Origin: Heterodera schachtii
Lineage: Eukaryota > Nematoda > Chromadorea > Rhabditida > Heteroderidae
NCBI GenBank assembly: GCA_023374025.1
Contig: SIJG01000003.1
Span: 1,017,897-1,081,896, forward strand
DNA: 64,000 nt
Direction of reading: 5' to 3'
The notes beneath the pieces are model-generated. The model ran no database searches. It saw only the letters and a list, made by a program, of their open reading frames with translations, and was not told the origin of the DNA. The position numbers were made by a program, and so were the translations under genes. Shown here piece by piece: positions 5,428 through 64,000 of this stretch (the first letter of the stretch is position 1; every line of letters begins with the position of its first letter).

Positions 5428-8400
5428 ATAACGAAATTTATTTTATGAAAATGAGGTGACCAAAAAGTTCTCAGCCGGTCAAAAAATAAATATAATTATG
5501 GGAAAAGGAAACTTAAAATTTTTCCAAAAAGTATATTTTTTTAAATTTTTTAATTTAAGTAAATTTTCATTGAAATTAAAAATCAAACCGCCTAAAAAAT
5601 GTCTCCAAGCAAAAAAAAAAAAAGTAAAAAACACCACAGGCTTAACCACTAGGTTATATATAAATTTGTGCTCTTTATACTTCATTTGTACATTGCATTT
5701 GAAAAACCGGTACCGGGTAGAGGACCGTATATTCCCTGCCCTGGTCTCATGGCATTCTAAAGCACAAAAATTTACACAAATGAACGAGAGCAGAGCGGTA
5801 GCTGGTCTAGCAATAAAATGCAATTTATTTGAAAAAAAAAATTTAATAACATCTTTGGTTAGGCACCGATTTTTTAAATAATGCTAAAAATAAAAGATGG
5901 GCAACATGCAGGATGATGAATTACGTCATATATTAAGGAAATTAATATAATTCTTTCAATAGCTCTCTCATGGCCTAGTGATCACGTTATTTATTGTTGA
6001 ATATCAATCGGTGCGTAAATTTTAATAATTTTTCGAGTATTATCGAATTGAATAATTCAAAAAATCCTACTCAAATAGGCTAAATTTGTTAAATATGGGC
6101 AAGCATTGATTATTATAATAAAGATTAACAATAAAAATGGGCATTGTGCGGGGTGTGATATGTAAAAAATTATATTAACAAGTAAATGGAGAGAAAAAGT
6201 GATTAATAATTGAAGGTAGAATAATTGAAATAAAAACCCAAGCAATTTTTGAATTAAATTATTGAAATTACTCACTCCAATTCATCAAAATGACATCAAA
6301 TTATTTTCTTTTTGCATTCTTTATTGCCATTATTTGGCTTTACTGCTTCTTTAATGGATGCATAGGCGGTGATAAAAATGAGATTTTTAATGGACTCACT
6401 GATTTTCATTCGGTCTCATCTAACGAGTCATCTTCAAGTTATGGTAAGTTTTATTGAATACTTTTAATTATTCGCTGTACAAGATTTTTGGGGTCGAAAA
6501 TCACAATATTTATTTTATTAAATTATTATAAAGTTTAAAAAATTTTGAAAATTTATTTGAAATTCATTCAAACCTTTTTCGCAAAATTTTGTGATTTTTA
6601 AAAAGATTTTAAAAAAGTTTTGAGTAGGACGGTTCCGATAAGACCCGGCGGTAGAAAATTTGAAAAAAAGTTAGATTTTATATTTTCCTCATTAATTTGA
6701 AATATTTAAAGCTTAAAAAATTTCTTCCATAATATTTCTGAGTTTTAGCTTATGGCAACTGGCAACCTAATCATACGTTAGCGTATGATGGTCCATTTCA
6801 AACAGCAGAAAACTTAAACAGTAAGACATTTTTTGAGTTTTTATTTTTTGAATAATATAATATTTTCCCAAATTTTCGGTTTAAAATAATTCCATTTTTC
6901 TCGTGTGTTTTTTTGTATAAATTAATTAATAAATCATCCAAATTTCTAAAATATCTTTGTTCATGTTTATGACGGAGGAATCCACCCATTTGTGTAATGT
7001 AGTTTCTGAATCATTTTTTCATACACTCCGCTTATTTCTGGCATCACTCTGGCATATTAATTTTTGCAAAAAATCATGAAATATTTTACCTAAATTTTTT
7101 ATTGGATTTTTATACAAAAGATGTGTGAATATATGTATGTGAAGACTTGGGCGGGTTATGACTGGCAGTACAGAACTGCTGACCCTTCCCCATATCCACA
7201 AAAGGCGGAATCGGCCAAAACAAATCTATTAGTATATTCATATTATCACACAAATTACAGACAACACCAAGGAATTTTTGGGAAGAGCTAAAGCAAATTT
7301 CGAACAGGGAATGAAACAAAAGAAAAAGGATAAAGAACAAAATAAAAAGCTGGAGGAAATGAAGCAACAGCTAGCTAAATTGAAGGGAAAATTGTCAAAA
7401 AGGAAAGAATAGATTCATCGAATGAATAGATCATGGCACTTGTTGTTGTTTCATTGGTTGTCTTATTGATCGGCGAAGTAAAAAAAAACTTTGTATCAAT
7501 ATTCAGTAATATTCTGAAACTAAGGATAAAGCCCTGGGGTGGGATCATAAAATGGGATTGCCGACAATTTTTGTGTTCTTCCGGTTTTCTATCGGAATTG
7601 TTTATATTGGTTCAAAAATTATTCCCGAATATTTCGTAATTTTTTTGCAAATATTCTAAATCATAATCAGAAATTTAATCATATTCATTGCCATTTGTCC
7701 AAATTAGTTCTTCAGATCAGCAGTTTCTCCTTTTAATTATTTCATCATTTCGCAGAAATTTCCAGGAAAAAGAATTTATGGGGCCTAACGGTGCCATTTT
7801 TAAAGATAATTAAATATTTTTAAATGATGGAATAGATAATTAGGAAAATAGGTTAAAAATTATTAGCATGTTAAGGTTTTATTTGAAAAAAATTGGATTT
7901 AGATTGAATTTATCAGGCGGTTATTGAAGAACGCAACTCAGCGGTACGGGCCGATAGGCGTCGCCGAAAAAATCTGAAAATCTTGAGTTTCATTAAGTTA
8001 TTTTATGCAATATTGTGCATCATCTATTTACTTTACTTTGAAATTAAAAATTGCGAGAACTTAATTAATAATTTCATGTTATATTTCATTTGATTTAAAT
8101 GATTTTTTTACAATATTTAATATTTTTAAAGACATTCAATTATTAAATTATAATATCTGAAAATTCACCAAATTTTTGCATGCTTCTATGGGATGAATAT
8201 TATTTAAATTGACCAATTTTTCAAAAATCAAAAATGAAAAAATAATGATAAATATTAATTCATATAATAACTCAAATTTTAATTTTTCACATTTTAAATA
8301 GAAAAACCTTAAAATTCTGCTAAAATTTGATTCTGATCAAAAAAGAACATTCATTATATGTATCAGCTTAGCTTAAGTAGATCACGCACTCAATAATAGT

Positions 8401-8991
8401 GGATTGAAAAGCCAAAATGTCTTAAAACGCGGAATATTTTCTAAAAAAAGCCAAAAAGGATTGAAAGTTTTTGCCCCTCTCCGTTCTTTATTTAACTTCA
8501 ATATCAAAATTAGATTATTGAAATAAATCCTCAAAAATTGCTCAAAATTTTAAAATCTGCAGGACGGACTATAACTTTTTTCTTTCTCAACCAAAGTCGA
8601 ACATTTGGTAACATTCGATAGCAAATACATATTATTCCATCTTATTAAAAAAGAAAATCAATTATGGTTCTTGATCTCAAATGCATTTATCTTTAGCAAA
8701 ATTTTCTGCATTTTGTTTCACCGCCAATTATCGTTGTTTTCACGATTTATTTGGTGTGTGTATTACAATAAAAAAATTTGAAATTTAAAAATAATAATGT
8801 ATAATTAAACAATATATATAGTAAGATCAAAGCCATTATCAGATTTTAGATTAGCCAATAAAGTAAGAACAAATTATTACAACCTATACAATAGAAACAA
8901 CATAAAAAGGCTGTAAAACATTCTATACAAAATTAAAAAAAAAAAAAGTTTTTCTTTTGCTAGTAAAAGCAAAGGCGAAATTAATTAGATC
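5428..8991. repeat. Tandem array, unit 1 (about 3.56 kb)
   Basis: The sequence from about 5428 reappears from about 8992 and again from about 12529, at a spacing of 3537-3564 bp. Units 1 and 2 are almost identical from about 6432/9972 onward, with only scattered single-base indels such as an extra A near 6720. The first kilobase (5428-6430 against 8992-9971) is clearly more diverged. The unit contains one small secreted-protein gene. Confidence 0.9.
6290..7412 (+). CDS. Small secreted protein with C-terminal lysine-rich coiled coil (125 aa)
   Basis: Three exons join in phase: 6290-6443, 6749-6820, 7261-7412 (stop TAG). The start ATG is followed by a hydrophobic N-terminus (YFLFAFFIAIIWLYCFF) ending near a G-C-I-G, a good signal peptide. 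The mature part is a Ser-rich stretch, a short aromatic exon (AYGNWQPNHTLAYDGPF), then about 45 residues rich in Lys, Glu and Gln with the heptad-like spacing of a coiled coil. Donors are GGTAAGT and AGTAAGA. A further open stretch at about 7140-7230 (TWAGYDWQYR...) has W, Q and Y spacing like exon 2 and could be an alternative exon, but its phase does not join the coil. No family recognised; secretion is predicted, function unknown. A broken paralogue lies 3.54 kb downstream. Confidence 0.6.
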
Positions 8992-11900
8992 ATAACAAAA
9001 TTTATTTTGAAAAAACAAGGTGACCAAAAAGTATTCATTTGTTAGCAAATCAAAAAATATATAATTTATAGGAAAATTGAAACTGAAAATTTTCCAAAAA
9101 ACCGCCAAAAAATTTTTTCTGTTGTATGGGATTGAACCAAGCAAAAAAGGAAATAAAACTGAATGCTTAAGCACTAGATATATGCAAAATTGCTTGTATG
9201 CTCTCTATACATTATTTAATTAAAATTTTCGTTTCTCTCCACCAATTTTTCACTTCAGACCACCATTCTTAACAGAAAAGTTTTCACGCTTGCCCTACCT
9301 ATATCAGGACCTGACATGTGAAAAACCATTTCCATTAAATAGCTGGTCTAGCAAAAAAATGCAATTTATTTGTCAAAAAATTTTTTATCGCATCTTTGGT
9401 TAGGCATCGATTTTTTAAATAATGCTAAAAATAAAAGATGGGCAACATGCAGGTTGATGAATTACGTCATATATTAAGGAAATTAATAAAAATCTTTCAA
9501 TATCCCTCTCATGGCATAGTGATCACGTTATTTATTGTTGAATATCAATCGATGCGTAAATTTTAATAATTTTTAGAGTATTATCGAATAGGATAATTCA
9601 AAAATTCTACTCAAATAGGCTAAATTTGTTAAATATGGGCAAGCACTGATTATTATAATAAAGATTAACAATAAAAATGGGCATTGTGCGGGGTGTGATA
9701 TGGAAAAAATTATATTAACAAGTAAATAGAGAGAAAAAGTGATTAATAATTGAAAGTAGAATAATTGAAATAAAAACCGAAGCAATTTTTGAAATAAATT
9801 ATTGTAATTACTCACTCCAAATCATCAAAATGACATCAAATTATTTTTTTTTTGCATTGTTTATTGCCATTATTTGGCTTTACTGCTTCTTAAATGGATG
9901 CATATACGGTGATAATAATTAGTATAATAATGGGCTCACTGATTTTCATTCGGTCTCATCTAGCGAGTCATCTTCAAGTTATGGTAAGTTTTATTGAATA
10001 CTTTTAATTATTCGCTGTACAAGATTTTTGGGGTCGAAAATCACAATATTTATTTTATTAAATTATTATAAAGTTTAAAAAATTTTGAAAATTTATTTGA
10101 AATTCATTCAAACCTTTTTCGCAAAATTTTGTGATTTTTAAAAAGATTTTAAAAAAGTTTTGAGTAGGACGGTTCCGATAAGACCCGGCGGTAGAAAATT
10201 TGAAAAAAAGTTAGATTTTATATTTTCCTCATTAATTTGAAATATTTAAAGCTTAAAAATTTCTTCCATAATATTTCTGAGTTTTAGCTTATGGCAACTG
10301 GCAACCTAATCATACGTTAGCGTATGATGGTCCATTTCAAACAGCAGAAAACTTAAACAGTAAGACATTTTTTGAGTTTTTATTTTTTGAATAATATAAT
10401 ATTTTCCCAAATTTTCGGTTTAAAATAATTCCATTTTTCTCGTGTGTTTTTTTGTATAAATTAATTAATAAATCATCCAAATTTCTAAAATATCTTTGTT
10501 CATGTTTATGACGGAGGAATCCACCCATTTGTGTAATGTAGTTTCTGAATCATTTTTTCATACACTCCGCTTATTTCTGGCATCACTCTGGCATATTAAT
10601 TTTTGCAAAAAATCATGAAATATTTTACCTAAATTTTTTATTGGATTTTTATACAAAAGATGTGTGAATATATGTATGTGAAGACTTGGGCGGGTTATGA
10701 CTGGCAGTACAGAACTGCTGACCCTTCCCCATATCCACAAAAGGCGGAATCGGCCAAAACAAATCTATTAGTATATTCATATTATCACACAAATTACAGA
10801 CAACACCAAGGAATTTTTGGGAAGAGCTAAAGCAAATTTCGAACAGGGAATGAAACAAAAGAAAAAGGATAAAGAACAAAATAAAAAGCTGGAGGAAATG
10901 AAGCAACAGCTAGCTAAATTGAAGGGAAAATTGTCAAAAAGGAAAGAATAGATTCATCGAATGAATAGATCATGGCACTTGTTGTTGTTTCATTGGTTGT
11001 CTTATTGATCGGCGAAGTAAAAAAAACTTTGTATCAATATTCAGTAATATTCTGAAACTAAGGATAAAGCCCTGGGGTGGGATCATAAAATGGGATTGCC
11101 GACAATTTTGTGTTCTTCCGGTTTTCTATCGGAATTGTTTATATTGGTTCAAAAATTATTCCCGAATATTTCGTAATTTTTTTGCAAATATTCTAAATCA
11201 TAATCAGAAATTTAATCATATTCATTGCCATTTGTCCAAATTAGTTCTTCAGATCAGCAGTTTCTCCTTTTAATTATTTCATCATTTCGCAGAAATTTCC
11301 AGGAAAAAGAATTTATGGGCCTAACGGTGCCATTTTTAAAGATAATTAAATATTTTTAAATGATGGAATAGATAATTAGGAAAATAGGTTAAAAATTATT
11401 AGCATGTTAAGGTTTTATTTGAAAAAAAATTGGATTTAGATTGAATTTATCAGGCGGTTATTGAAGAACGCAACTCAGCGGTACGGGCCGATAGGCGTCG
11501 CCGAAAAAATCTGAAAATCTTGAGTTTCATTAAGTTATTTTATGCAATATTGTGCATCATCTATTTACTTTACTTTGAAATTAAAAATTGCGAGAACTTA
11601 ATTAATAATTTCATGTTATATTTCATTTGATTTAAATGATTTTTTTACAATATTTAATATTTTTAAAGACATTCAATTATTAAATTATAATATCTGAAAA
11701 TTCACCAAATTTTTGCATGCTTCTATGGGATGAATATTATTTAAATTGACCAATTTTTCAAAAATCAAAAATGAAAAAATAATGATAAATATTAATTCAT
11801 ATAATAACTCAAATTTTAATTTTTCACATTTTAAATAGAAAAACCTTAAAATTCTGCTAAAATTTGATTCTGATCAAAAAAGAACATTCATTATATGTAT

Positions 11901-12528
11901 CAGCTTAGCTTAAGTAGATCACGCACTCAATAATAGTGGATTGAAAAGCCAAAATGTCTTAAAACGCGGAATATTTTCTAAAAAAAGCCAAAAAGGATTG
12001 AAAGTTTTTGCCCCTCTCCGTTCTTTATTTAACTTCAATATCAAAATTAGATTATTGAAATAAATCCTCAAAAATTGCTCAAAATTTTAAAATCTGCAGG
12101 ACGGACTATAACTTTTTTCTTTCTCAACCAAAGTCGAACATTTGGTAACATTCGATAGCAAATACATATTATTCCATCTTATTAAAAAAGAAAATCAATT
12201 ATGGTTCTTGATCTCAAATGCATTTATCTTTAGCAAAATTTTCTGCATTTTGTTTCACCGCCAATTATCGTTGTTTTCACGATTTATTTGGTGTGTGTAT
12301 TACAATAAAAAAATTTGAAATTTAAAAATAATAATGTATAATTAAACAATATATATAGTAAGATCAAAGCCATTATCAGATTTTAGATTAGCCAATAAAG
12401 TAAGAACAAATTATTACAACCTATACAATAGAAACAACATAAAAAGGCTGTAAAACATTCTATACAAAATTAAAAAAAAAAAAAGTTTTTCTTTTGCTAG
12501 TAAAAGCAAAGGCGAAATTAATTAGATC
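8992..12528. repeat. Tandem array, unit 2 (about 3.54 kb)
   Basis: Direct copy of unit 1. Coordinates map by +3539 to +3540 in the gene region and about +3537 near the right end. It carries the nonsense copy of the secreted-protein gene. Point differences cluster in its left kilobase. Confidence 0.9.
9830..10951 (+). pseudogene. Second copy of the secreted coiled-coil gene, broken by a stop
   Basis: Equivalent exons lie at 9830-9983, 10288-10359 and 10800-10951. Exon 1 has several substitutions against unit 1, and codon 31 is TAG (9920-9922), so translation would end just after the signal peptide. Exons 2 and 3 and all splice sites look intact and nearly identical to unit 1. The decay is therefore confined to exon 1 and its upstream flank. 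A downstream re-start is not obvious. Confidence 0.6.
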
Positions 12529-19891: not shown

Positions 19892-20384
19892 GGTTCGCCG
19901 ACGCCGGTTCGCCGATGGAAGGTTCGCCGACGCCGATTCGCCGACGGACGATTCGCCGACAAGACGTTTCGCCGACAGACGTTTCGCCGATAAGATGTGG
20001 GACAGAATGTTTTTAAATAAAATTGAAATAAATCAGAAAACCTTCTGGGAAACCTCTATAATTACATATTCCACTCGGCGCTGACTTTATCCTTGACATA
20101 CATATATCCGTTTAGAGCGTACTTCTGGAGTATTTTTTTTATTAGATAATAAGCTAAGCTTCGGTTAAGTGATAATCAATACTAACAGTTCTCCCGAAAG
20201 ACATAGGTATTTCTTAAATTGATTAGTTTTCCAGAAAGTTTCTGATTTATTTCAATTTTATTTAAAAACATTCTGTCCCACATCTTATCGGCGAATCGTC
20301 TGTCGGCGAAACGTCTTGTCGGCGAATCGTCCGTCGGCGAACCGGCGTCGGCGAACCTTCCATCGGCGAACCGGCGTCGGCGAA
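19892..20384. mobile_element. Foldback element with TTCGCCGAC word arms
   Basis: Arms of about 150 bp (19892-20040 and 20239-20384) are reverse complements, and weaker pairing runs about 25 bp further into the 200-bp spacer. Each arm begins with about seven degenerate 14-15-bp units built on TTCGCCGAC, then the unique sequence AAGATGTGGGACAGAATG. No transposase. GC-rich words in an AT-rich genome make it stand out. An apparent Arg-Arg-Phe-Ala-Asp repeat reading frame across the words is not considered a gene. Confidence 0.75.
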
Positions 20385-37751: not shown

Positions 37752-38508
37752 TAGAGAAAGGCAAAACAACTTTTTTTTAAGAAAAAAATTGTTTCTTCGG
37801 AGATCAACATTTAAATTGTTATTTAATTATTAACAATGTTCATTTTGCCAACAACGTATAAAACAACTTATTTTTAAAATTTTCGTCAATTTTTGAAAAT
37901 TTATTTTAGCAGGAAATATCACTTGGGAGAGAGATAAGGCAAAATGAGAGAGTGCTGAACTTTCAGTACTGGTCAGACAAAACATTTTTGATGAAGGAGG
38001 GTAGAGAAAATAATTTTAAGAGAGAGTGCAATGGGAAGAAAGTATAGTTCCCTTCTTCGCTGATTCCTTCGGTCATAGACGCAGAATCTAATATATTAAT
38101 TTTGCAATGTGTGTGTGTGTGTGTCTCAAAATTTTGAATTTTTTATTGACACGATTGTTTTAGAGATTAAAAAGAGAAGGAGGGGAGGGGGGTGAGAAAG
38201 AGAAAAGAAGAGAGAGAAGAGAGCGGGAGAGAGATAAGAGAAAGAGAAAAGACAGGGAGAGAAAATAGAGCGATAAAAGAAGAGAGAGGGAGAGAAAAGC
38301 ATAGAAAGGAGAAAAGAGAGAGGGAGAGAAAGAAAGAGTAAAGAGAGAGAGAGAGAGAGAAAAGAGAGAGGGAGAAAAAAAAGAAAGAGAGATAATGAGA
38401 GGGAGAAAGAGAGAGATAAAGAAACAAAGTGAAAAGAAGAGAGAGGGAGAGATAAAAGAGGAGAGGGAGAGAGAAAAGAACAGAGAGAGAGAGAGAAGTG
38501 ATAGAGAA

Positions 38509-38561
<53 letters not shown>

Positions 38562-39104
38562 GAAAGAGAAAAAGAAAGCGAAGAGAGCGGGAGAGAGAAA
38601 GAAAGAGCAAAGAGAGAGAGAAAAGAGAAGGAGAGGGAGAAAGTAAAGAGGAGAAAAAAAGTAGAGAGAGAGAGGAGAGAAAAAAGAGTGTGAGTTCAGT
38701 TGGGAGAAATGTGAGAGAAGGATGATAAAAAATTTTTGAATTTTGGCTAGCGCGAGGTGCGCGAGCGAAGCGAGCGCGCCTGTGCTAGTTATCATTATGT
38801 TTCTATTGTCTCTATGTCTTTGAATCTCTTCCGATAGCCTTCTCTATTAAATATTTTTTCTCTGTCTTTCTTCATCAAAAATGTTTTGTATGACTGTGAC
38901 TGAAAGTTCAGCACTTTCTCATTTTGCCTTATCTCTCTCCCAAGTGATATTTCCCGCTAAAATAAATTTTCAAAAATTGAAGGAAATTTTAAAAATAAGT
39001 TGTTTTATACGTTGTTGGCAAAATGCACATTGTTAATAATTAAATAACAACGTGAAGGTTGTTCGCCCGAATAAACTAATAAATAAGTTGTTTTGCCTTT
39101 CTCT
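37752..39104. mobile_element. 1.35-kb Mutator-like element with long inverted repeats and 9-bp target duplication
   Basis: Ends AGAGAAAGGCAAAACAACTT (left) and AAGTTGTTTTGCCTTTCTCT (right). AATCCTTAC flanks both sides (37743-37751 and 39105-39113). The inverted repeats extend about 250 bp, including CACTTGGGAGAGAGATAAGG near 37920 and its complement near 38940. The interior is a 570-bp purine tract, then a GCGCGAGGTGCGCGAGCGAA patch. No transposase, so non-autonomous. Confidence 0.85.
38160..38735 (+). repeat. (GA)n-type polypurine tract
   Basis: About 570 bp of GAGAGA/GGGAGA/AAGAGA with very few pyrimidines. Long open frames on both strands (Ser/Leu-rich and Arg/Glu-rich) are low-complexity shadows. 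A (GT)8 run lies just upstream at 38107-38123. Confidence 0.9.
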
Positions 39105-44089: not shown

Positions 44090-45196
44090 GGCTCTAATGC
44101 ACTTTATGAGTCCAATCGACTTTTATGAGTCCAATTGAGTTTTATGAGTCCGAAGGTATTTTATGAGTCCAATCAACTGAAAATTCTTCGTTTTTATACA
44201 ATAACTAGAGACCGGATTTTGAGGCATATGCCTTTTTTTTTTTTGCTAACTTGCTACGGCCTAATATGCACGAAAAACGAGTTTTTAACTTGGTTTGAAG
44301 CTTCTAGCTTGAACTTTTTTGTGCCTTTTTTTGCCTTTTGGTGCCTTATGCCGGGCACGTAATTTTGGTGCCTTTTTTGCCTTTTGGTGCCTTTTTTCAT
44401 GCCTTTTTCAGGATTTTTGGAAGAAAATGGAAAATTTTTTAATTTTTTGCAATTTTTCTTATCGTATTCTTACAACTTCCAAAAAAATTTTTCCGGCGGC
44501 GCCTATCGGCACCGCCGGGACCCCCAAAAAATTGTCATTTTTTCGGAGCTAAAATTTTTCTACCCGGTTATGAAATTGAATTGTTGATATAACATAGAAG
44601 AAAAAAAATTTGATGACCAGAAGAGCAAAAAAAAAAAAAAAAGGTCTCTTGGTAAATTTTTTGCTAGAAAAATGTTGAATATTTGGTGCCTTTTTCCATT
44701 TTTTCGTGCTTTTTTTGCCATTTTTGTATTTTTTTTATGCCTTTTTTCACATTTTTGGTGCCTTTTTAGGTGCCTATTTGAGAAATTTTCGTGCCTAAAA
44801 GTCCGGTCTCTAACAATAACTTTGTTCATGATCGAACAAACCCTATCTTCTTGGTATCATTCGAAAGCACAAAGTCAGAATAATGTAATAATAAATACGA
44901 GAAAACAAGAGAATTCTAATACTTGAAGAAAGTTACAAACGAAAATAATCAACAATTACTTAATTAATCATATCTTTTTTGGTAATTGCCTAAACACTGC
45001 GATTTTATATATTTTAGATTCGTTAGACTTTGTGCTTTCGAATGATACCAAAGATTGGGTTTGTTCGAATACGAACAAAGTTATTGTATAGAAAGCAGGT
45101 ATTGTCAGTTGATTGGACTCATAAAAATACGTTTGGACTCATAAAACTCGATTGGACTCATAAAAGTCGATTGGACTCATAAAGTGCATTAGAGCC
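44090..45196. mobile_element. Foldback element with TTATGAGTCCAAT word arms (hAT inserted inside)
   Basis: The left arm begins GGCTCTAATGCACTTTATGA and the right arm ends in its exact complement. Each arm has four units of about 19 bp built on TTTATGAGTCCAATCGAC. Inward of the words both arms carry ATAACTTTGTTC, then 20 bases further on TTCTTGGTATCATTCGAAAGC or close variants. Without the nested insertion the element is about 490 bp. No target duplication recognised. Confidence 0.8.
44206..44812. mobile_element. 607-bp hAT-like non-autonomous element, nested
   Basis: Inverted ends TAGAGACCGGA / TCCGGTCTCTA. Perfect 8-bp duplication ACAATAAC at 44198-44205 and 44813-44820. The interior is T-rich with repeated GTGCCTTTTTTGCC words and holds a perfect dispersed palindrome (44493-44518). 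It sits in the left arm of the foldback 44090-45196, so it arrived later. Confidence 0.9.
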
Positions 45197-45483
45197 GAAA
45201 AATCAATATACAAAAATTAAAAATACTTTTCATTCAATTAGAAAAAACAGCTAAACGAATCTCTGAAATTGAATTGAAAATGTTGAATTTAATTTATCAA
45301 GGTTTTAACTAAAAAATTAACAAATTAAAATCGAAAAGAAACAACTGGAACGGATTCGGTCAGATAAATAAACCAATCCATCTAAACTTTTATTATAAAG
45401 TAATAGATGAACCGAAGACATAATTAAGATATTTCATCTATTTATAACTTATATTTACATATTAATCCGTTTTTGATCCAAAA

Positions 45484-45600
45484 TTGCTACATTCGAAAAT
45501 TAGGACTTTCGACTTTTTGTTCGAGTTCGGTCCTGAGTTCGGAATTTGCCGAAATGAATACAGGATTCGTAATCAGGGACCTAAAAACCCAAGGATTTTT
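45484..45600 (+). repeat. Dispersed 120-bp repeat, copy 1
   Basis: Shares with 46255-46375 and 63438-63555 the blocks TTCGAAAATT..GGACTTTCGA, TTCGGAATT.GCCGAAATG and GTAATCAGGGACCT. Copies are well diverged. Function unknown; probably part of a transposon family. Confidence 0.65.
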
Positions 45601-45681
45601 TTTTATGACAATAACTTTGAAAGATTAAGCATGCAATATAAAAGCAAATTTCTATAAGAACATTGTTCTGAATTCTGAACT

Positions 45682-45830
45682 AGGGTTGCTCCCCGACCCC
45701 TCGGGGGGCAAAATGTCGGGTGCCGGGGACCATCGTGTGGCACATACCGGGGGTCGGGTCGGTGGGGGGGGGGGGGGTGGCTAAATTGTCGGGGGTCGGG
45801 GACCCCCATCGGGTAGTGTTGAACAAAAAT
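45682..45830. mobile_element. GC-rich inverted-repeat element with a run of 14 G
   Basis: TAGGGTTGCTCCCCGACCCC at the left and GGGGTCGGGGACCCCCATCG...TAGTGTTGA at the right form imperfect inverted ends. The interior has GTCGGG words and a run of 14 G (45764-45777). The left end fits the hAT pattern. Target duplication not clear. Confidence 0.45.
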
Positions 45831-46254
45831 TTTTTTAACGAAAAACCAATTTTTCTTTTTAAAAGCTCGTAAATCTTACTTTTTTGTCACTTTAATCATC
45901 TGATTCAAATTCATTCTTTGGCGCCAGTAAAAGTGCGTACAATTTGGCATTTTATAATATGGCAATCCGAAGCACCAAAAATTTTCAGAAATCGAAATGG
46001 AATTTCGAGGCTCAAAAATTTTAATCTCAAAATTTGAAAATTTATCGGTGCGCTTTTCAAAAACCTTTTTCTAAACTTGGGGTGGAGGGATGTGGTCAGG
46101 CGTTGCCGACCGGCGCCGCCGGGAAACTTTTTTGAAAATGAGTATAATTTGTTAAGAGAATTTTCTCAAAAAATTGTCCAAATTTTGTGATTTTTGAGCA
46201 TTCTAAAAGCCTTCAATTCTTCATTAAGAGATCATTTATGTCGTTTTTGAATCA

Positions 46255-46375
46255 AAAATGCTAAATCCGAAAATTTGGACTTTCGAATTTTTGTTTGAAT
46301 TCGGTTTTGTGGTTCGGAATTGGCCGAAATGCATGTTTGATCCGTAATCAGGGACCTCGAAAGCCAAAGGAACTT
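46255..46375 (+). repeat. Dispersed 120-bp repeat, copy 2
   Basis: Second copy of the family at 45484-45600, followed within 40 bp by the TGACGCATT word pair. Confidence 0.65.
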
Positions 46376-47975
46376 GTTTTTATAATTTCACTGAAGCATT
46401 TTATACTGACGCATTTTCCAATGACGCATTATTCGGGAGCCAATAAACGCAAAAATATTAAATATTAATTACCTAACTAATTGTTTTAAATAGAATATTC
46501 AAAGCTAAACAATAATTTAAACCAAAAAATTAATGATATAGAACTTAACTCATTTTTTAGCAATCGAGAAATTATACAGTCAGATTTTAAAAATTATCAT
46601 CTGTATATATTTTTCTTAAAATAATTTGGTAACTTTAGCGAATGAACTTGGAAACTTTAAACCGGTCATTCTTGACACTTTTAGACTCTTCTTGGAAAAC
46701 ATTTAAGTCAAATTTCTAAAAATTATCATCTAATTGTAAGCATATAATTTTTTGCCAAACAATTTAATAAAAAAATTAAATGGACTAATGAATTCCGTTA
46801 TCTGATTTTTGAATCTTGATTTAATTTAAATATAACATTAAAAAAAAACGATGCTAAAATTTAAAATCAACAATATAATGAATCCATAAAGCTTTATATG
46901 ATTAAAAATAGTGTAGTAAACTAATTCATGGAATTGTAATTGAAAAAATAACAAAAAATATATTTTTTATTTTTTTATAAAAATTTTTAAAAGCAAGAAA
47001 TAAAAATGTTGAAAATATTACATTGATTCAAAATTAATTTAAAAAATATCACAAACTTGAAAATAAATCTATTAAATATAATTGTAATGAAATTCCGTTA
47101 TAAATTCCGTAAACTGATTTTATGTCATTATTTAAATTTTATAGTTATAAAAATATTCTCTTGATAAAGTCTAAAAGCTTTAACTTTTACACCAATACTA
47201 AAATAAAATTTATATTTCATGCGACATAAAAGCAAATAGTCAATTTATCAATGTGCTTTCCTTAAAATTTTAACACATTTTAATAATAATAATAAAAAGG
47301 AATTTATTAAAGTATAATTTAATAATAACCAACGCCATGAAAAAAAGGAGAATTTAATAGCATGATCAAGCGTCATTTAATTTCTAATTTCTATTTAACA
47401 TAGATTAATTCTTAATCTTTTTAACCATTCATCGGCTGCGTCGCAGCAACATCAGGTCCGTGTGAACACCACATGGAGCTGGTCCATGAAAGCATGATTA
47501 TTCACAATTTACAAAAAATTATAAAGAAAAAAACAAATTTTAAAATAGAACGAAAATTAAAACAATTATAGTTAAATTAACTTTAAAATACAAATAAATT
47601 CATTTATTTTTAATTCAGGCATCTATATATTATTTTTAATTTACTCACTCATTGAATCGAAAAGTTATTGATTTTGAAGATGAAAATTTTATACAATAAA
47701 TATATCAAAATACTGATTTTTAATATAAAATCAGTTTTAATATTATTTATATATGGAATAACCTTTTACTAAATTTAAATAAAAAATTTAAAAAATTATA
47801 ATTAAATGCTCAAAGTTTCAATGCAATTGCCAATATTGCCCAAAGGCCTTCTCCGATCATTTCGGCCCCATACGAATTGTATTTTTTTAAATTGCAAATA
47901 CAGTTATTTTTGACTTATTTTAACAAGTACCATTGTTTATTATATATTTTGCAAATTTTGGCTCATAGTAATAAT

Positions 47976-48561
47976 TAGGGATGCGATTTTTAGTGATTTA
48001 ACTAATTTTTTTGCTTAATTGTTTTGAAGAAAGGAGCTCAAAAAACGCATTTCTGCGTTGAAATTTTTTATCTGGACGTCATTTTTCGTCACTAGAAATC
48101 ACTATTTTGGCGCTTCGTCACTAAAATAGTGAAAAGTCACTATTTGGTGTTTTGTCACTATTTTTTCACTATTTCAACATTTTTTGGAAAATTTCTCAAC
48201 AAAAATGCAATAAAAACGAAAAATGCACCCCTAAGAAACGATCTAAAATTTTTAAAAAATACCCTCCTAAGAAATAAAAAAAAATTTCTCTAAAATTTAT
48301 CCTCCAAAATTTTTTTTCTTGACAAATTTTTGATTTAAAAAATGCCAATATTTGCTAAGAAATTATTAGACATGAATGTACCTCAATTCAACTGCAACAG
48401 TTAATAAAAATTATTTTTTTTACTCAATTTTGGCTAAAAATTATGTCACTATTGTCACTATTTCAGACTTTTTGTCACTATTTTCTCACTATTTTGGCAT
48501 TTTTACTCACTATTTTAGTTAACTATTTCGGGATTTTTTGTCACTAAAAGTCGCATCCCTA
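47976..48561. mobile_element. 586-bp hAT-like non-autonomous element
   Basis: Ends TAGGGATGCGATTTTTAGTG and CACTAAAAGTCGCATCCCTA, almost perfect inverted repeats. Exact 8-bp duplication GTAATAAT at 47968-47975 and 48562-48569. The interior is full of GTCACTATTT words. No transposase frame. The intact duplication suggests a fairly recent insertion. Confidence 0.92.
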
Positions 48562-48569
48562 GTAATAAT

Positions 48570-49376
48570 ATAAATGGTTTAGAACAAAAATGGCATAATA
48601 TAATAATATCTGATAAATCAATTTTAATATGATATAAAGTTATTACCTAATTATTAAATGAGTCTTTATCAGGTTATTCACACTGAATGCGGTAGGTGAT
48701 TGTCAAAAAATATATGTCTTTAACTATTCTAAAGGTGAAATGGAAATTATTTATTACAATTTAAATAGAAATTATAAAGAAAATTTTATTTGTAAATAAT
48801 TTAAATTGGCATAATATAATACCTGTAAAAGCAATTTTATATCTTCTTCTAAAGTTTTTATTTAAATACTAATTAGACAATTTTAATTTATATTCTTTTA
48901 AAATATTTATTAGCGTAACAACAACGGTATTTTTTGTTCCCGAACCAAAATTTATTAAAATGAGAGACAATTCTACTACATCTACCTAAGCTGACTAATC
49001 GAAACATATATATAAAAAATTATTAGTAAAATAAAAAATATTATAAAGTAAAAGGTAAAGAAAAAATACTATAATTAAAACAGCGTAAAATTAAAGCCAA
49101 TTTTTAAAAAATATAAAACTGTTAATTTTTTTAATAATGAAAATTCGATCAGTTCTGTAGGAAAAAATCTTTTCGAATGAAAAAAGCCAATTTAAAATTC
49201 TTTAATTAAATTATTTTTACAGTTGCAGAAATATAAAAAAATCATTTTCAGTTATGGTTGAACTCCAGCGGGAAACCTTATACTTTAAAATTTGAAAATA
49301 AAATTAAAAAATTAAATTAAAAAATAAAATAAAACAAAAATTAATTAAACATTATTTTCAGTATTTTGTGAACAAA
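48570..49376. other. AT desert with one weak exon-like patch
   Basis: At about 49245-49275 a TTTTCAG acceptor precedes a short frame (MVELQRETLYFKI, plus strand). Otherwise nothing recognised. Confidence 0.25.
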
Positions 49377-51085
49377 TTAAATATAGGAAGGCCCTGCTGA
49401 AGACATAGCTGAACCAAGTGAATAGGGGAGATATTCCTCAATCTCATAAAACCATATATAGAAACTTTAATGTAAATAACGGTAAGCAAAAAAACAGGAA
49501 AAACTTTTCACTGAAATAATTTTTGAAACAAATAAATTTTTTATTAATATTATCTTAATTAATTTAGCTAAAAATAAATGATTTTCTAATTACACATGCG
49601 AAAGACGAAGAATGAATAAATAATTAACAAAAGTCAAAAATGTTTCTTTCACGAGATGGGCATACAAATTTATGAAAATGCTTATTAATCAAGAAAAATC
49701 TTTTACTCAAAAATTAAAAAAATAACCCTTCTTAAAATTAGGAAAAATATTTCCTTTCTTAAAAAATTAATATACCCTTAAAATACAATAAATCTTAAAG
49801 AACAATAGATACCAAAAAACTGACAATGATAACAACAGTATTAAAACTCTAAAATAGGATTCTAATTTATTATTTTTCAATTTGATTCATCATTAAAATA
49901 TTAAAATTCAATACAAAAATTAGCATTGATTAATAAATAGTTAGTTTTTTCAAAAAAAAAAATTAAACTTTATTAAAAAAAAGGTTTGTTTATCAAAAAT
50001 CAATCAGAATAAAAGGCAATAAATACAACCATAAATACATATTTTATGAATAATTTATAAGCCAGGAAACCTTAACATTTCTGGTAGCACAGTATAGTTG
50101 CCCGAGTTTGCATCCTTATATTTTCCGAAGCTTATGTATCAAATCAAATCAATTATTTAATAATTCAAAGTCAACTAATAAACTTATAAATTTTTGTAAT
50201 TTGTCACAACCGCTGCATATATAGCAGCCCGTGACTTGCTTGAATTTATATGCTGACAAATAAATAAACATAGATAAAAACAGTAAGGCATATAAAAAAA
50301 TTAATTTATATTGTTTAAATAATTAGTTTGAACCCATTCAACATATGGTAATATTTAATAAAAAATAGAATTATTATTAAAATTAATTATAATAAATTAA
50401 ATGAATATTTTTTTAAATACAATTTGTATACAATGAAAAAAACCGTAAAAAAATTAACATTTTAATATTTACTGAATTAGTTTTATAAAGAATATTTTTT
50501 TTCGTCATTTATATCTTTAAATTAAAATATTTTGGAATATATGGAAATTGCGGATTCAAAAAATATTTTAAAATTTTTTGTTTTAAAAAATGACTTGGAC
50601 AATTGCCATTGTAGGAAATGTAAAAAAAAGTTTATTCAAATTAGAAAAGCCATATAAAATGAATAATATTTAAATCTGAACAAGTAAACAGAAAATAAAA
50701 ATACAAAATTTCAAATTTTGAAACTTATAAAAAACTAAATATTAGAATTAAATATTTTATGAAATTATCAAGTATGTTATCTCATAAAATATATATATAT
50801 AAAAATATATAATATTATAAATATATATATTAAAATCTTTGAACTAATATTTTTTATCAGATTATAAAAATAAAAAGTTTAATAAGAGGAATTAATAATC
50901 TAATAATAACAAATATAAAAATATAAATGAATTGGTTATCTAAATTAAATGTCGTCAAAATTATTGCTTTAACAAAAAGCCAAGACATAAATCAAATAAT
51001 CACTACAAATTAATTAACCCACTGGGACAAAACAGCTTTTCTTTTCACCGGACAATCGAGAATATACAAGCATTAAAAGAATATT
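49377..51085 (-). CDS. Predicted multi-exon gene, 3' part (unknown protein)
   Basis: Four minus-strand exons join in phase with GT-AG sites: 51019-51085, 50211-50238, 50071-50130, 49377-49464 (stop TAA). The 80 residues include NILLMLVYSRLSGEKKSCFV, then SHGLLYMQR, KYKDANSGNYTVLPEM, and a terminal F-Y-I-W-F-Y-E-I-E-E-Y-L-P-Y segment ending SAMSSAGPSYI. Each exon is GC-richer than the surrounding desert. No family recognised. The 5' end is missing; the duplicated block at 51.5 kb could supply an earlier exon (R-P-W-T-T-G-S-S-T, minus). Introns are 780, 80 and 606 bp, longer than in the left half of the window. The plus strand also opens over the first exon, so transcript evidence is required before trusting it. 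Confidence 0.35.
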
Positions 51086-51434
51086 CTTTCCAGGTGTGTG
51101 ACTTAATATATCAAAGATCAATTAAAAGGGTAAATGGAATAAAATCAATCAATATTAATTACAATTGTGAAAAAATATTATCTTATACAAAATTTACCAA
51201 ATTTTGTGAGTATCAGGAAATGTAGAAAGTAAATTATAAAACTAATAATCGAGGAAAAAAAATTTATTTTGTCTAATGTATTTAATTTCATTCAACAAAT
51301 TAATTATTGAAAACATAAAAATATATTAAATCGAACATCTATTAAATCCAACAATGTATATCTGAATAAAAATAATATCTCTATTCAATTTTTTGGAAAT
51401 CTATCTGTCAATATATTAATATGAAATATTTTAT

Positions 51435-51740
51435 TGATTAATTCTAATAAAATAATTATCTGAAATAAATTTTCGCTAAAGTAAAGCAGGTGAGCGGAGA
51501 ACAATGTGCCGTTTTAGAAAGAAACCAATAGTCAGTCTACACGAGATGAAAGAGGAACCAATGGAAGACACTACGGTGGAACTGCCGGTTGTCCAAGGAC
51601 GCTGAAGAACTAAGACCGATAAGCATTTTATTTGTGAAATTTTTTCTTATAAACATCTAAGTTATTAAATGACAAAAGCTGCTTCATGAAATAACAAATA
51701 TCTTAAAAGAAAATAAAGAAAAATTGGATAACAAAATATT
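51435..51740 (+). repeat. 300-bp dispersed block, copy 2, with a 33-aa ORF
   Basis: Partner of 41830-42130. The 33-aa frame (51504-51605) is identical in sequence, and the conserved block runs on about 100 bp past its stop codon. Substitutions are confined to the flanks I compared. Confidence 0.6.
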
Positions 51741-53422
51741 TTAATTCATACGATATACAGATAAATTTTAAATTTTTTAAGCAAATGGATAATAAATATA
51801 TTTAATAAAATAAAACATTTTTAATCAATAAATTTAGTCGAATAAAAAAAAGAATTGACTAAAATCATATGAATAATTTAGTGAATTTAACAATTAAAAT
51901 TTGCTTTCCTATGTATAACTGCAGCAAAATGAAGTTATACAATTTAACTAATTAAACCTAAAAAAATATTGGCAAATATTGATTATCTACAAATTCAAAA
52001 TTGCTTAATAATAGTCTGAAAAATGAGAAGCATGTTTAATTTTTAGTATTCTTCAAAACAATAATGGCTTTCTAAAGAGCATGAGTAGTAAAAGAAACCA
52101 AAATTATTTTAAATAATATGGTAAATAAATTTAAGCTTTGAACAAATTAAATAAATGGAGATAATGTATCAATTATTCATGCACAGCATTACAAGGATAA
52201 TAATGATAATACATCCTACTAATTATATTCAATCCCCAAGTTCCACAAAATTAGTTAAGCGTTAACATAATTTAATTTTCCAAATATTTTTTTAAAGTAA
52301 TTCTTCGGAAACTCAAACCTAAACAGGCTAAAATATTTATTATTATGAAAATAAAAGAAATATTTGAAAAAACATAATAAATTAATTTGCTCAACTTTTA
52401 TGTAAACAACCCAAAATATAGAAGAAAAAAACAATCATTATATTCGAAAGGATAATAGCATATTAAATTCATATACAAGCTCAGCAATTATTAGTTGACG
52501 CAATAAATTAATACAGACGAGATTTTTTAATGAACAAATTTCGAATAAAAGACCTTTAAAAATACCTTACATTTAAGAATAGTTAAAAAAATTCATCTCT
52601 CAAAAATATTTAAAGTTTTATTTAATTTAATCTTTATAAAGGAATTAATTAAAAATTTAATTTAATTGTAAGGATAAATAAAATAATTGTTTATAACAAT
52701 TAATGCATAAAACATACAATTTAAAAGGAAATTTCTCGAAAACTATTATTAAATAAGTCTCACTTCAATGGTCGACCGGTTCTAATAATAAAGAAAAAAA
52801 CAATAACACTGCTTACAGCACTAAACAACTGGCGATGTCATAGCCACTACGAATGCACAGGTGGCAACGGTTATGCTAAGTGTAAAAGGAGGTTTAATTT
52901 TCTTGAATTAAAAATTTTAGACTTAAAAAATTTGTGAGCCTATTTAAAAGCCACATATTTTATTCAAATCAAAAAATTCCTATAGAAATGAAATCATAAA
53001 GACAAAAATAAACTATTCAAAAAATAAATTATTTCGGCATAATTATTATTAAAATATTTATTTAAATTGAAAATGCTGATAATAAGTTTCATTATATCAA
53101 GATTCAAAAATAAGAAAAAATGAAACATACTCATATTTATGTAGCAAAGAAAAATTGTTTTGAACCCACAAACATTAACGCAAAGAATTTTTAATAATAA
53201 TATTAAAACATATAAAGATATCAAATTGATATTTTCAAAATGATTAATTGTTATTACTAAATATTTCAAAAATAAATCAACAGTTAAACTAAATTCGAAA
53301 TAGATAAACAAAAAATTGAAATGAACCTTAAAACTTTAAAAAATTTTGCAACATAAAGAATATTTAAAACTAAATTATAATTTTATTAATTGAAAAATGT
53401 TATTTGAGATTAATGAGCTATT
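51741..53422. other. AT desert with one cysteine-rich exon-like patch
   Basis: At about 52829-52880, after the acceptor CTGCTTACAG, the plus strand reads LNNWRCHSHYECTGGNGYAK before a GTGTAA donor, a cysteine spacing like small extracellular modules. The minus strand over the same bases reads a hydrophobic ITVATCAFVVAMTSPVV to a stop. Strand undecided; nothing else seen. Confidence 0.25.
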
Positions 53423-53586
53423 TTAATAAAAAATATTTTCTATAGTTTTTTGTTCATCAACTGGGCCATCCTCGGCATTTTCTTTTTTTGGTTGAACGTG
53501 TTGACCATTTTCATTGTTTTCGCTAACAAAATAAAAATATATATATATATAAATTTTATCAAACAGGTCGAGTATTGGTCTCGGTG
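53423..53586 (-). CDS. Predicted terminal exons of an unknown gene
   Basis: Exons 53565-53586 and 53423-53522 join in phase: PRPILDL, then an acidic, Gln/Asn-rich tail (ENNENGQHVQPKKENAEDGP) ending T-I-E-N-I-F-Y and TAA. Acceptor TTTTGTTAG and the biased composition support a C-terminal exon. The rest of the gene was not found. Confidence 0.35.
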
Positions 53587-53753
53587 CTAAATTGTAAAAT
53601 ATATAATTATTTAATATGAAATACTTTAAAATTAACATGTTATTAAAATTTTAGATTTATATAAAACTTATATCGATAAGAAAAAAATAGAATTAATATA
53701 ATAATGTTAAATGATTTTCATAAGTTTGATGGACCATGTACATGTAGCGTATA

Positions 53754-54129
53754 TGGGGGCACCCCAAAACGTCGCCGGAAGACTTTTTGGACCATAACTT
53801 TGTTCATTGTAAATCAAATTAAGCATTCTTGGTGTTGTTCGATAGCTTTATGTGTTTACTATTAATAGGCTGCTAAATTTAAAAAATTTTCCGTTAAGTT
53901 TCAAAAAAGTTATGGCCAGAAGGAACTCAAAAACCTAGTATTTCGAACTTTTTTGCTCTGATTTTTTTTGTACATCAATAAAAAATTTTGAAAAATTTGT
54001 AGCTTAATAGAATTTTTCATAAGCTTTGGAACAATACCAAGAATTTTTAATATGGTTGAGTAGGAAAAAAGTTATGGTCCAAAAATTCGCCCGGCGACGT
54101 TTCGGCTGGCGACGTTTTTTCCTGGTCCG
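53754..54129. mobile_element. 376-bp foldback element with GACGTTT words and 8-bp target duplication
   Basis: Imperfect inverted arms: TTGGACCATAACTTTG near 53800 and its complement near 54070. Outer ends carry AACGTCGCC, and GCGACGTTT twice on the right. AGCGTATA flanks both sides (53746-53753, 54130-54137). Each arm holds the core ATAACTTTGTTC plus TTCTTGGTGTTGTTCGA, spaced as in 44090-45196. Confidence 0.8.
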
Positions 54130-54137
54130 AGCGTATA

Positions 54138-54728
54138 TTTATTCCCTTTAATTTAATTTTATAATATTTGATAATATAATATTTGGACGAAAATATTATC
54201 GAGATTTTTGGCAAAGGCAAAAATAATAAACATTTAATGCGCTAAAGTTTAAATAATTAAAAAAACAAAACTATTTGTCAAAGTACTTTTGAACTATAAC
54301 TATTTATTATTTAAAAAAAGCAACGAGCCATATTGTAATTTAAAAATAAAAATAAATAAGCGACGAAGAATGAAAATATAATTTATAAATATTCTACTTA
54401 ACATACAAATAAAACTTATTTACTGTTTAAATATGCAAATATTATATATTATTTACAAAATGGTATCTTGAAATATGACAAGATGCTTTTGAAAAGAAAA
54501 ATTTAAAAAGGAGCAATTTTTGACATAATTGTTGTTGATACTTGTATTTTGAAAATAATTAACAACAAAGCAAAAGAATAAAATAATGAATTAATTCAAA
54601 AAATTTCATTACGATATTAATTATTGAAATAAATAGAGCTAAGGAAAAATAAAGGACATTGATTAAATAAAATAATTTTTAAACAAAAAAATGCAGTTTT
54701 AAAACATTAAAGAAAAACAAATAATAAA
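54138..54728. other. AT desert
   Basis: Nothing recognised. Confidence 0.35.
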
Positions 54729-63555: not shown

Positions 63556-63629
63556 GGCGAAATTTAATTTTTAATGGGACCATATTCAAAAGTGGTTCTT
63601 TGACCATAACTCTTTTCTTAATCCGTCAC

Positions 63630-63965
63630 TAATGGATAATCCGTCAGTGGACAATCCGTCAATAAACAATCCGTCTGTAAAATTTATTTTTTTAAAATAA
63701 ATTTTATTAAAACATGTGAAGATGAATTTAAATCGCTAAAAATGTGAATTACCCAATTATTGTTTTATTTTATAAAAATCATGAAATAATCATTTTTAAA
63801 AGAGTTAAATGAAATTCCTATAGATGGTGAATTAATTTAAATATTAAGTAAGTACAACGTTTTAAATGTTATTTATTAAATTTAATAATCATTTTCGCAA
63901 AATTTATTTTTCATTATTCAAAAAAATATTTTCTGACGGATTGTCCGGACCATTCTGTCCTTAGT
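63630..63965. mobile_element. Probable foldback with AATCCGTC words (right side near window edge)
   Basis: Four units of (A/T)AATCCGTCANT at 63630-63682, and the complement GACGGATTGTCCGGACC at about 63935. Arms and ends are incomplete or unclear. The same architecture as the other word-bearing foldbacks. Confidence 0.5.
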
Positions 63966-64000
63966 GTCATCATTCGGAAAATTTTGTTATTACCTCAAAA

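Follow-up and report, generated by a model that had tools for sequence, protein, structure and literature searches.

In a 64,000-nucleotide stretch of the genome of the nematode Heterodera schachtii (assembly GCA_023374025.1, contig SIJG01000003.1, positions 1,017,897 to 1,081,896; hereafter the window), two foldback elements share a core just inside arms that are made of different short tandem repeats, here called words. On the basis of a genome-wide analysis, we consider it probable that these elements are short non-autonomous foldback derivatives, similar to miniature inverted-repeat transposable elements (MITEs), that are moved in trans by Merlin transposases and whose ends change while the core-bearing interior is kept. 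The initial annotation of the window had pointed to a family in which the terminal word is swapped or re-amplified around a constant core, without naming the mobilizing enzyme.

Foldback families and their words

The genome (178.5 Mb, 356 contigs) was searched for the core, with the reversed pattern as control for pattern counts. The 12-mer ATAACTTTGTTC occurred 670 times (22 times for the reversed pattern), and TTGGTATCATTCGAAAGCTT, a 20-mer of the inner half of the core, had 4548 matches with at most two mismatches compared with 30 for its reversed form; a genome-wide clan was thus found. Loci were taken from 100 of the 670 places of the 12-mer (about 80 loci outside the window, of which 40 were read, L009-L048) and from 100 of the 4548 places of the 20-mer (20 read, L049-L068). 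The elements belong to the foldback class, having long inverted arms with tandem subrepeats. Family A has termini GGCTCTA...TAGAGCC and 1-4 units per arm of the 19-bp word TTTATGAGTCCAATCGACT; family B has a word of about 15 bp, AACGTCG[C/T]CGGCCGA; and family C has 1-13 units of a 14-bp word, TT[G/C]GGC[G/C], in which all four letter combinations (signatures) occur. D-type elements have the terminus GGTGCTA in common and three different words in L023, L046 and L049, and F elements combine a C-type interior with plain ends (GGTACTTGT) that lack words.

Words were homogeneous within elements and different between them, as had been proposed, and among the copies read it was not the case that most carried one and the same word. 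Both arms were scorable in 33 of the 48 arm pairs, and the words agreed in 32 of these, L024 being partly mixed; in 14 others one arm was unscored, and the remaining pair, L049, was wrongly paired. The latter was at first taken as a single element with two words but consists of two adjacent elements (D and A'), each with its own 8-bp target duplication (8/8 by eye), and was therefore removed from the concordance count. In family C, 100 readouts (out of 563 matches) gave inner-unit signatures of 35 GG, 28 GC, 19 CC, 17 CG and 1 other. Adjacent units agreed in both signature letters in 96 of the 100, compared with a mean of 26.2 and a maximum of 43 after shuffling, and no G/C mixing was observed at either position among the 98 pairs in which each of the two units had G or C. 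Genome-wide, 4831 TTSGGC pairs were spaced 14 apart (206 in the reversed control), of which 104 (64+40) were mixed at the third letter (3 and 5 in the reversed controls). The innermost family-C unit kept a private tail, CCAGCATG, in all four signature classes.

Change of words around a conserved interior

Word and interior have been repeatedly decoupled in family C, which supports the change of word around a kept core considered in the initial annotation. The interiors of F064 and GC056 were 88% identical (246/278), whereas the 110 bases outside showed no similarity (z -0.4 and 0.1). F064 and F053 had interiors of 89% identity, with a common left end (z 15.7) and a right-end z of 1.9. Among chosen pairs of family-C interiors, those with different signatures were 89-92% identical and those with the same signature 87-94%. 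In a first tree of 21 interiors, 10 label changes were counted, compared with a mean of 11.9 after shuffling, and 19 of 200 shuffles gave a count that low; in a second tree of 19 interiors, from which L051 and L065 had been dropped, there were 8, compared with a mean of 10.1, and 7 of 200 shuffles gave a count that low. Approximately unbiased (AU) tests, performed on the second tree only, rejected a single clade for three of the four signatures, GC (p 0.022), GG (0.003) and CG (0.003), and likewise for elements with G at the first or at the second signature position (0.003 and 0.001), while CC and F each formed clades. It should be noted that recombination within interiors would give the same AU outcome.

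Merlin transposases between word-bearing ends

The Merlin transposase domain (PF12762, DDE_Tnp_IS1595) had 64 matches in the genome above the cut-off, and a protein comparison gave 105 matches, the two sets overlapping. We read 44 Merlin places (L069-L096 and L098-L113), 34 of them only over 450-600 bases downstream, and additionally the 5' side at two places (L097 and L114). A transposase with matching ends was found for one word, TTATGAGTCCAAT: the Merlin at C96:502369-504991 is complete at its ends (2623 bp), has family-A termini with 7 and 8 exact family-A words and is flanked on both sides by an exact 8-bp target duplication, GTAATTTT. Its domain was scored on a 75%-identical relative, L078 (E 3.6e-17). 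This element has the termini and words of family A, which makes Merlin the natural mover of that family. Merlin elements are described as having GG termini and 8- or 9-bp duplications (PMC8101967, excerpts), and family A shows all of these features: a DDE_Tnp_IS1595 transposase between its own ends, GG termini and an 8- or 9-bp duplication.

Related Merlins carried the word TTATGAGTCCAAT with one or two letters altered. Eleven Merlin places were taken as the closest to L078, and in 10 of them the family-A word or its GCA or GCG variant stood just downstream: the family-A word in C96, C47, C83, C69 and C42, GGACGCATAAA in C57, C148 and C81 (one unit in the last), and GGACGCGTAAA in C327 and, in degenerate form, in C35; downstream of the Merlin in C31 no word was found. 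Identity to L078, measured over different protein stretches, fell with the word variant, from 100, 84 and 77% for GCA copies through 75 to 62% for TCA copies to 62 and about 55% for GCG copies. Three or more exact word units occurred at 8 of the 44 places. In contig C1 (2698977-2701863), two tandem units 2384 bp apart each had a TTSGGC array exactly 252 bp from a Merlin match; the usual inner family-C unit was absent from these arrays, and we regard the tandem units only as a lead toward an autonomous element that may carry the family-C word.

Other features of the Merlin places were also recorded. L077 had a core match downstream of the Merlin gene (E 8.4e-6) plus a weaker one; with roughly one core per 30 kb by our estimate, this is plausible by chance, and we do not claim the core as an ancestral Merlin terminal motif. 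The left end was not found in L114. GC-rich tandem words (GCGCCAAAATGGCC and AACTCGCCGCGGCC) were located near Merlin genes at L071:90-215 and L105:60-230, and L105 (the C14 Merlin) was not counted, no terminus or duplication having been identified beside its array. L110 contained a single stray ACGCGTCC. In L069, L072, L073 and L076, plain terminal repeats of 214-229 bases had no words; these Merlins are probably recent insertions because their ends are 97-99% identical. Word-armed Merlins had a second gene upstream of the transposase (L097:1228-1791 and L078:2-343; 26% identity between the two copies, E 3e-11), with a hydrophobic start and, by eye, a saposin-like cysteine pattern (Pfam Saposin E 0.1, below the cut-off). 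One H. schachtii protein with a transposase annotation matched this gene (93%, covering 23% of the query). Merlin N-termini (L074:2085-2441 on the minus strand, L078:661-834 and L097:2170-2440) had CxxC...CxxC pairs resembling a zinc ribbon by eye; no Pfam zinc ribbon scored above the cut-off in two N-terminal exons, and Merlins have been described as lacking the zinc domain of IS1595 (PMC8101967, excerpts).

The core and target duplications

A core profile had 118 matches at E<1e-3 in 89 local sequences (326,823 bases; L001-L008 were excluded as duplicates) and none in the reversed control. Profiles were then built from the arms of single families (24 A, 20 B and 36 C arms, out of 121 found; E<0.01). 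The profile of family C alone recovered 23 of the 24 A arms and 19 of the 20 B arms, and that of family B recovered 35 of the 36 C arms and 20 of the 24 A arms; that of family A recovered 34 of the 36 C arms but no more than 3 of the 20 B arms. Reversed controls gave zero in all six tests. Judged by these comparisons, the core of A, B and C is one homologous module. The homology of the cores in the window is based on the cross-family profiles and not on direct alignment of the two interiors, which was weak (z 2.6). Since the arms had been collected with the same motifs, the conservation of ATAACTTTnTTC and TTGGTATCATTCGAAAGC is partly ascertainment. The position of the core was fixed, just inside the arms, with inverted pairs 260-280 bp apart in A, B and C.

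At exact termini, 6 of the 22 elements with the terminus pattern (including at least one spurious-looking row, L042:3860) had flanks that matched at 8/8 and 9 at 7/8 or better, compared with 0 and 2 of 458 unrelated flank pairs. Another count of 13 elements, in which a one-base shift was allowed, had no matching control and was not used. Family A contributed 11 rows: five at 8/8, three at 7/8, one at 9/9, the window element at 6/8 and L047 at 5/8. Duplications of 9/9 were found in L030 (A), L044, L045 and the family-B element of the window, three of family B in all; family F had 8/8 in one element and family C 8/8 in two, only with a one-base shift for an extra C.

Elements and other repeats in the window

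The family-A element (44090-45196) has the termini GGCTCTAATGCAC and GTGCATTAGAGCC. As had been described, each arm carries four TTATGAGTCCAAT-like units, namely an array of TTTATGAGTCCAATCGACT with a 19-bp period at 44103-44178 on the plus strand and four units of the same word at 45111-45183 on the minus strand. The element is long because of a 607-bp insertion nested in the left arm (44206-44812, by eye), which interrupts the core and is not part of the foldback. The insertion has 11-bp ends (TAGAGACCGGA and TCCGGTCTCTA) and an 8-bp duplication, ACAATAAC, at 44198-44205 and 44813-44820 (all by eye); it may be hAT-like, judging from its ends. The cores lie at 44816-44870 (plus strand, profile E 4e-16) and 45032-45084 (minus strand, E 6.7e-13), and the core-to-core distance is 269 bp, as in most relatives.

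The family-B element (53755-54129) has the termini GGGGGCACC and CCTGGTCCG and a target duplication, AGCGTATAT (9/9), at 53746-53754 and 54130-54138. Its word, AACGTCGCCGG, is also as first described, with one unit in the left arm (53768-53778, plus strand) and, reversed, an array of two units with a 15-bp period in the right arm (54086-54117, minus strand). The cores are at 53794-53847 (plus strand, E 2.4e-12) and 54021-54075 (minus strand, E 3.9e-8). Thus, the profile found the core in both arms of both elements, as claimed in the initial annotation, but the right arms deviated from the core given there: its fixed spacing did not hold at 45084 (minus strand), where the spacer is two bases shorter, and its letters did not hold at 54075 (minus strand), where ATAACTTTTTTC...TTGGTATTGTTCC stands instead. 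A swap of words between these two elements themselves, which had also been suggested, is indistinguishable from long divergence.

Five further word sites had been proposed as possible relatives (19892-20384, 63630, 19732, 46411 and about 1760). None had the core at E<1e-2, and their membership is unsupported. The first is a true inverted repeat (19894-20039 and 20239-20384; 146 bp, 99%) without a core; the other four were not among the 25 longest of the 93 inverted repeats in the window. At 63600-63985, a AATCCGTC word element is flanked by what appear by eye to be degenerate halves of the core, GACCATAACTCTTTTCTT before and GTGTCATCATTCGGAAA after, which gives the impression of an insertion into an older element with the core. 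Among all inverted repeats in the window, the longest (37799-39067; 241 nt, 88%) encloses a GA-rich tract. A repeated stretch is present at 6951-8623 and 10490-12160, the copies lying about 3.54 kb apart, and each copy contains one plus-strand core (8571 and 12108) and no recognized words. The window also contains an exon with 94% identity to a protein of Heterodera trifolii.

Discussion

The elements have a short terminus, usually starting with GG, and then a tandem array of short words. In the mechanism that we propose, these words may serve as arrayed transposase-binding sites, a few letters of which would set the Merlin sublineage that reads the element. Non-autonomous copies would keep a shared interior that includes the core and change their ends, in some cases by alteration of the signature letters in all units of both arms and in others by replacement of the whole end, probably through ectopic exchange or gap repair between copies sharing the core, presumably followed by arm-to-arm conversion. 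The uniformity of the words would result from array turnover plus conversion between arms able to fold together, and Merlin may also be the mover of B, C, D and F. A further possibility, which we put forward only tentatively, is that the words form a recognition code in which two or three letters per unit choose among co-resident Merlins, so that non-autonomous copies would switch transposase by changing the code or the whole end and keep their interior; we infer this step to a code from the uniform words.

Several observations weigh against our proposal. Among the 44 Merlin places read, mostly over 450-600 bases downstream, none showed the ends of B, C, D or F, and the ends of A-word Merlins that were read had no core. 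The window family-A element lacks a clean target duplication, and family-C termini have an extra C ahead of GG. Word uniformity is weaker in family A because its three letters agreed in only 51 of 67 readouts (out of 1022 matches). The tree of 19 interiors, built without the long or odd rows L051 and L065 and the interrupted row L017, had only 3 starred branches among its 16 inner ones, and sampling by the 12-mer and the 20-mer was biased toward conserved cores.

The word classes might simply be subfamilies of the usual kind, in which the ends evolve more rapidly than the core and no swapping takes place. The A and B cores are indeed far apart, both in the alignment of the two window interiors and in the few B arms recovered by the A profile, CC and F elements form clades, and GC elements show partial clustering in the tree (4 changes compared with a shuffled mean of 6.4). 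We nevertheless consider this explanation unlikely: F and C interiors are 87-88% identical and show no similarity beyond them, pairs with different signatures are as similar inside as pairs with the same one, and a single clade is rejected by the AU tests for each of GC, GG and CG. It also seems fairly improbable that the words are passive minisatellites amplified by slippage while the transposase reads the terminus only. Such an origin would agree with the range of unit number (1 to 13), with plain, word-less Merlins in the same genome and with the internal tandem repeats noted without a role in some Merlin families (PMC8101967, excerpts). On the other hand, A elements, whether autonomous or non-autonomous, have the same word letters at their two ends, and the innermost C unit keeps its tail in four classes while its signature letters change along, which argues against plain re-amplification of one unit, since this would replace the tail too.

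Whether the core was ever part of Merlin can also be questioned. It might be an independent repeat, either an older foldback or a foreign module, that was captured separately by different transposons. The core-less ends of the A-word Merlins, as far as these were read, and the core copies without recognized words, such as those at 8571 and 12108 in the window, speak for this explanation, which we regard as doubtful given the fixed place of the core inside the arms and the constant spacing of its inverted pairs in A, B and C; the core match downstream of the L077 Merlin points the same way but may be due to chance. Finally, the movers could be Mutator/Phantom transposases, as for the foldback Tm1 of root-knot nematodes, which has tandem units of about 14 bp, foldback arms and 9-bp duplications (PMC3169594, excerpts), and some family-B elements do have 9/9 duplications. 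This origin appears very unlikely, because Merlin genes lie between family-A ends (Mutator genes themselves were not searched for), clear duplications are mostly 8 bp and termini are of the GG type; the analogy with Tm1 was set aside given the mostly 8-bp duplications and the Merlin ends.

Foldback arms with tandem subrepeats are known from the FB elements of Drosophila and are reportedly present in Tetris of Drosophila as well; both have other transposases and hosts. The elements described here resemble the Merlin / IS1016 superfamily in the DDE_Tnp_IS1595 transposase, GG termini and 8- or 9-bp duplications (PMC8101967, excerpts), and differ from it in having lineage-specific word arms, a large non-autonomous clan and differing words on the same interior. 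Tm1 is similar in its composite terminal repeats with variable numbers of units and in being mostly non-autonomous, but it is associated with a Mutator transposase, characterized by a FLYWCH domain, and 9-bp duplications, and the available excerpts give one unit consensus with small species differences and no exchangeable words (PMC3169594). Galileo of Drosophila (P superfamily) shares long terminal repeats with tandem units and several subfamilies per genome; its units were proposed as additional transposase sites, and chimeric copies, some with the interior of another subfamily, were proposed to arise by ectopic exchange (PMC3573991, excerpts). Galileo differs in its P-type transposase and 7-bp duplications, and a short word of uniform signature is not described in the excerpts available (PMC3573991). 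Family A has Merlin and 8-bp duplications instead, although a P transposase itself was not searched for. Foldback arms, chimeric copies and Merlin have each been described before, and we found no report of their combination in the literature searched, where, as far as the excerpts go, there were no Merlin foldbacks with exchangeable words and the nearest nematode foldback was Tm1.

Our results name a likely mover for one foldback repeat family in a crop-parasitic nematode, and they bear on the open questions of how the match between a transposase and its ends is maintained as both diverge and how MITEs outlive their parent. Merlins and foldbacks with end-words that vary by single letters from one transposase sublineage to another provide natural pairs for letter-by-letter tests of specificity, and elements with the same interior and different words open the co-change of transposase and ends to study. 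If true, the recognition code would amount to host-switching by MITEs inside one genome.

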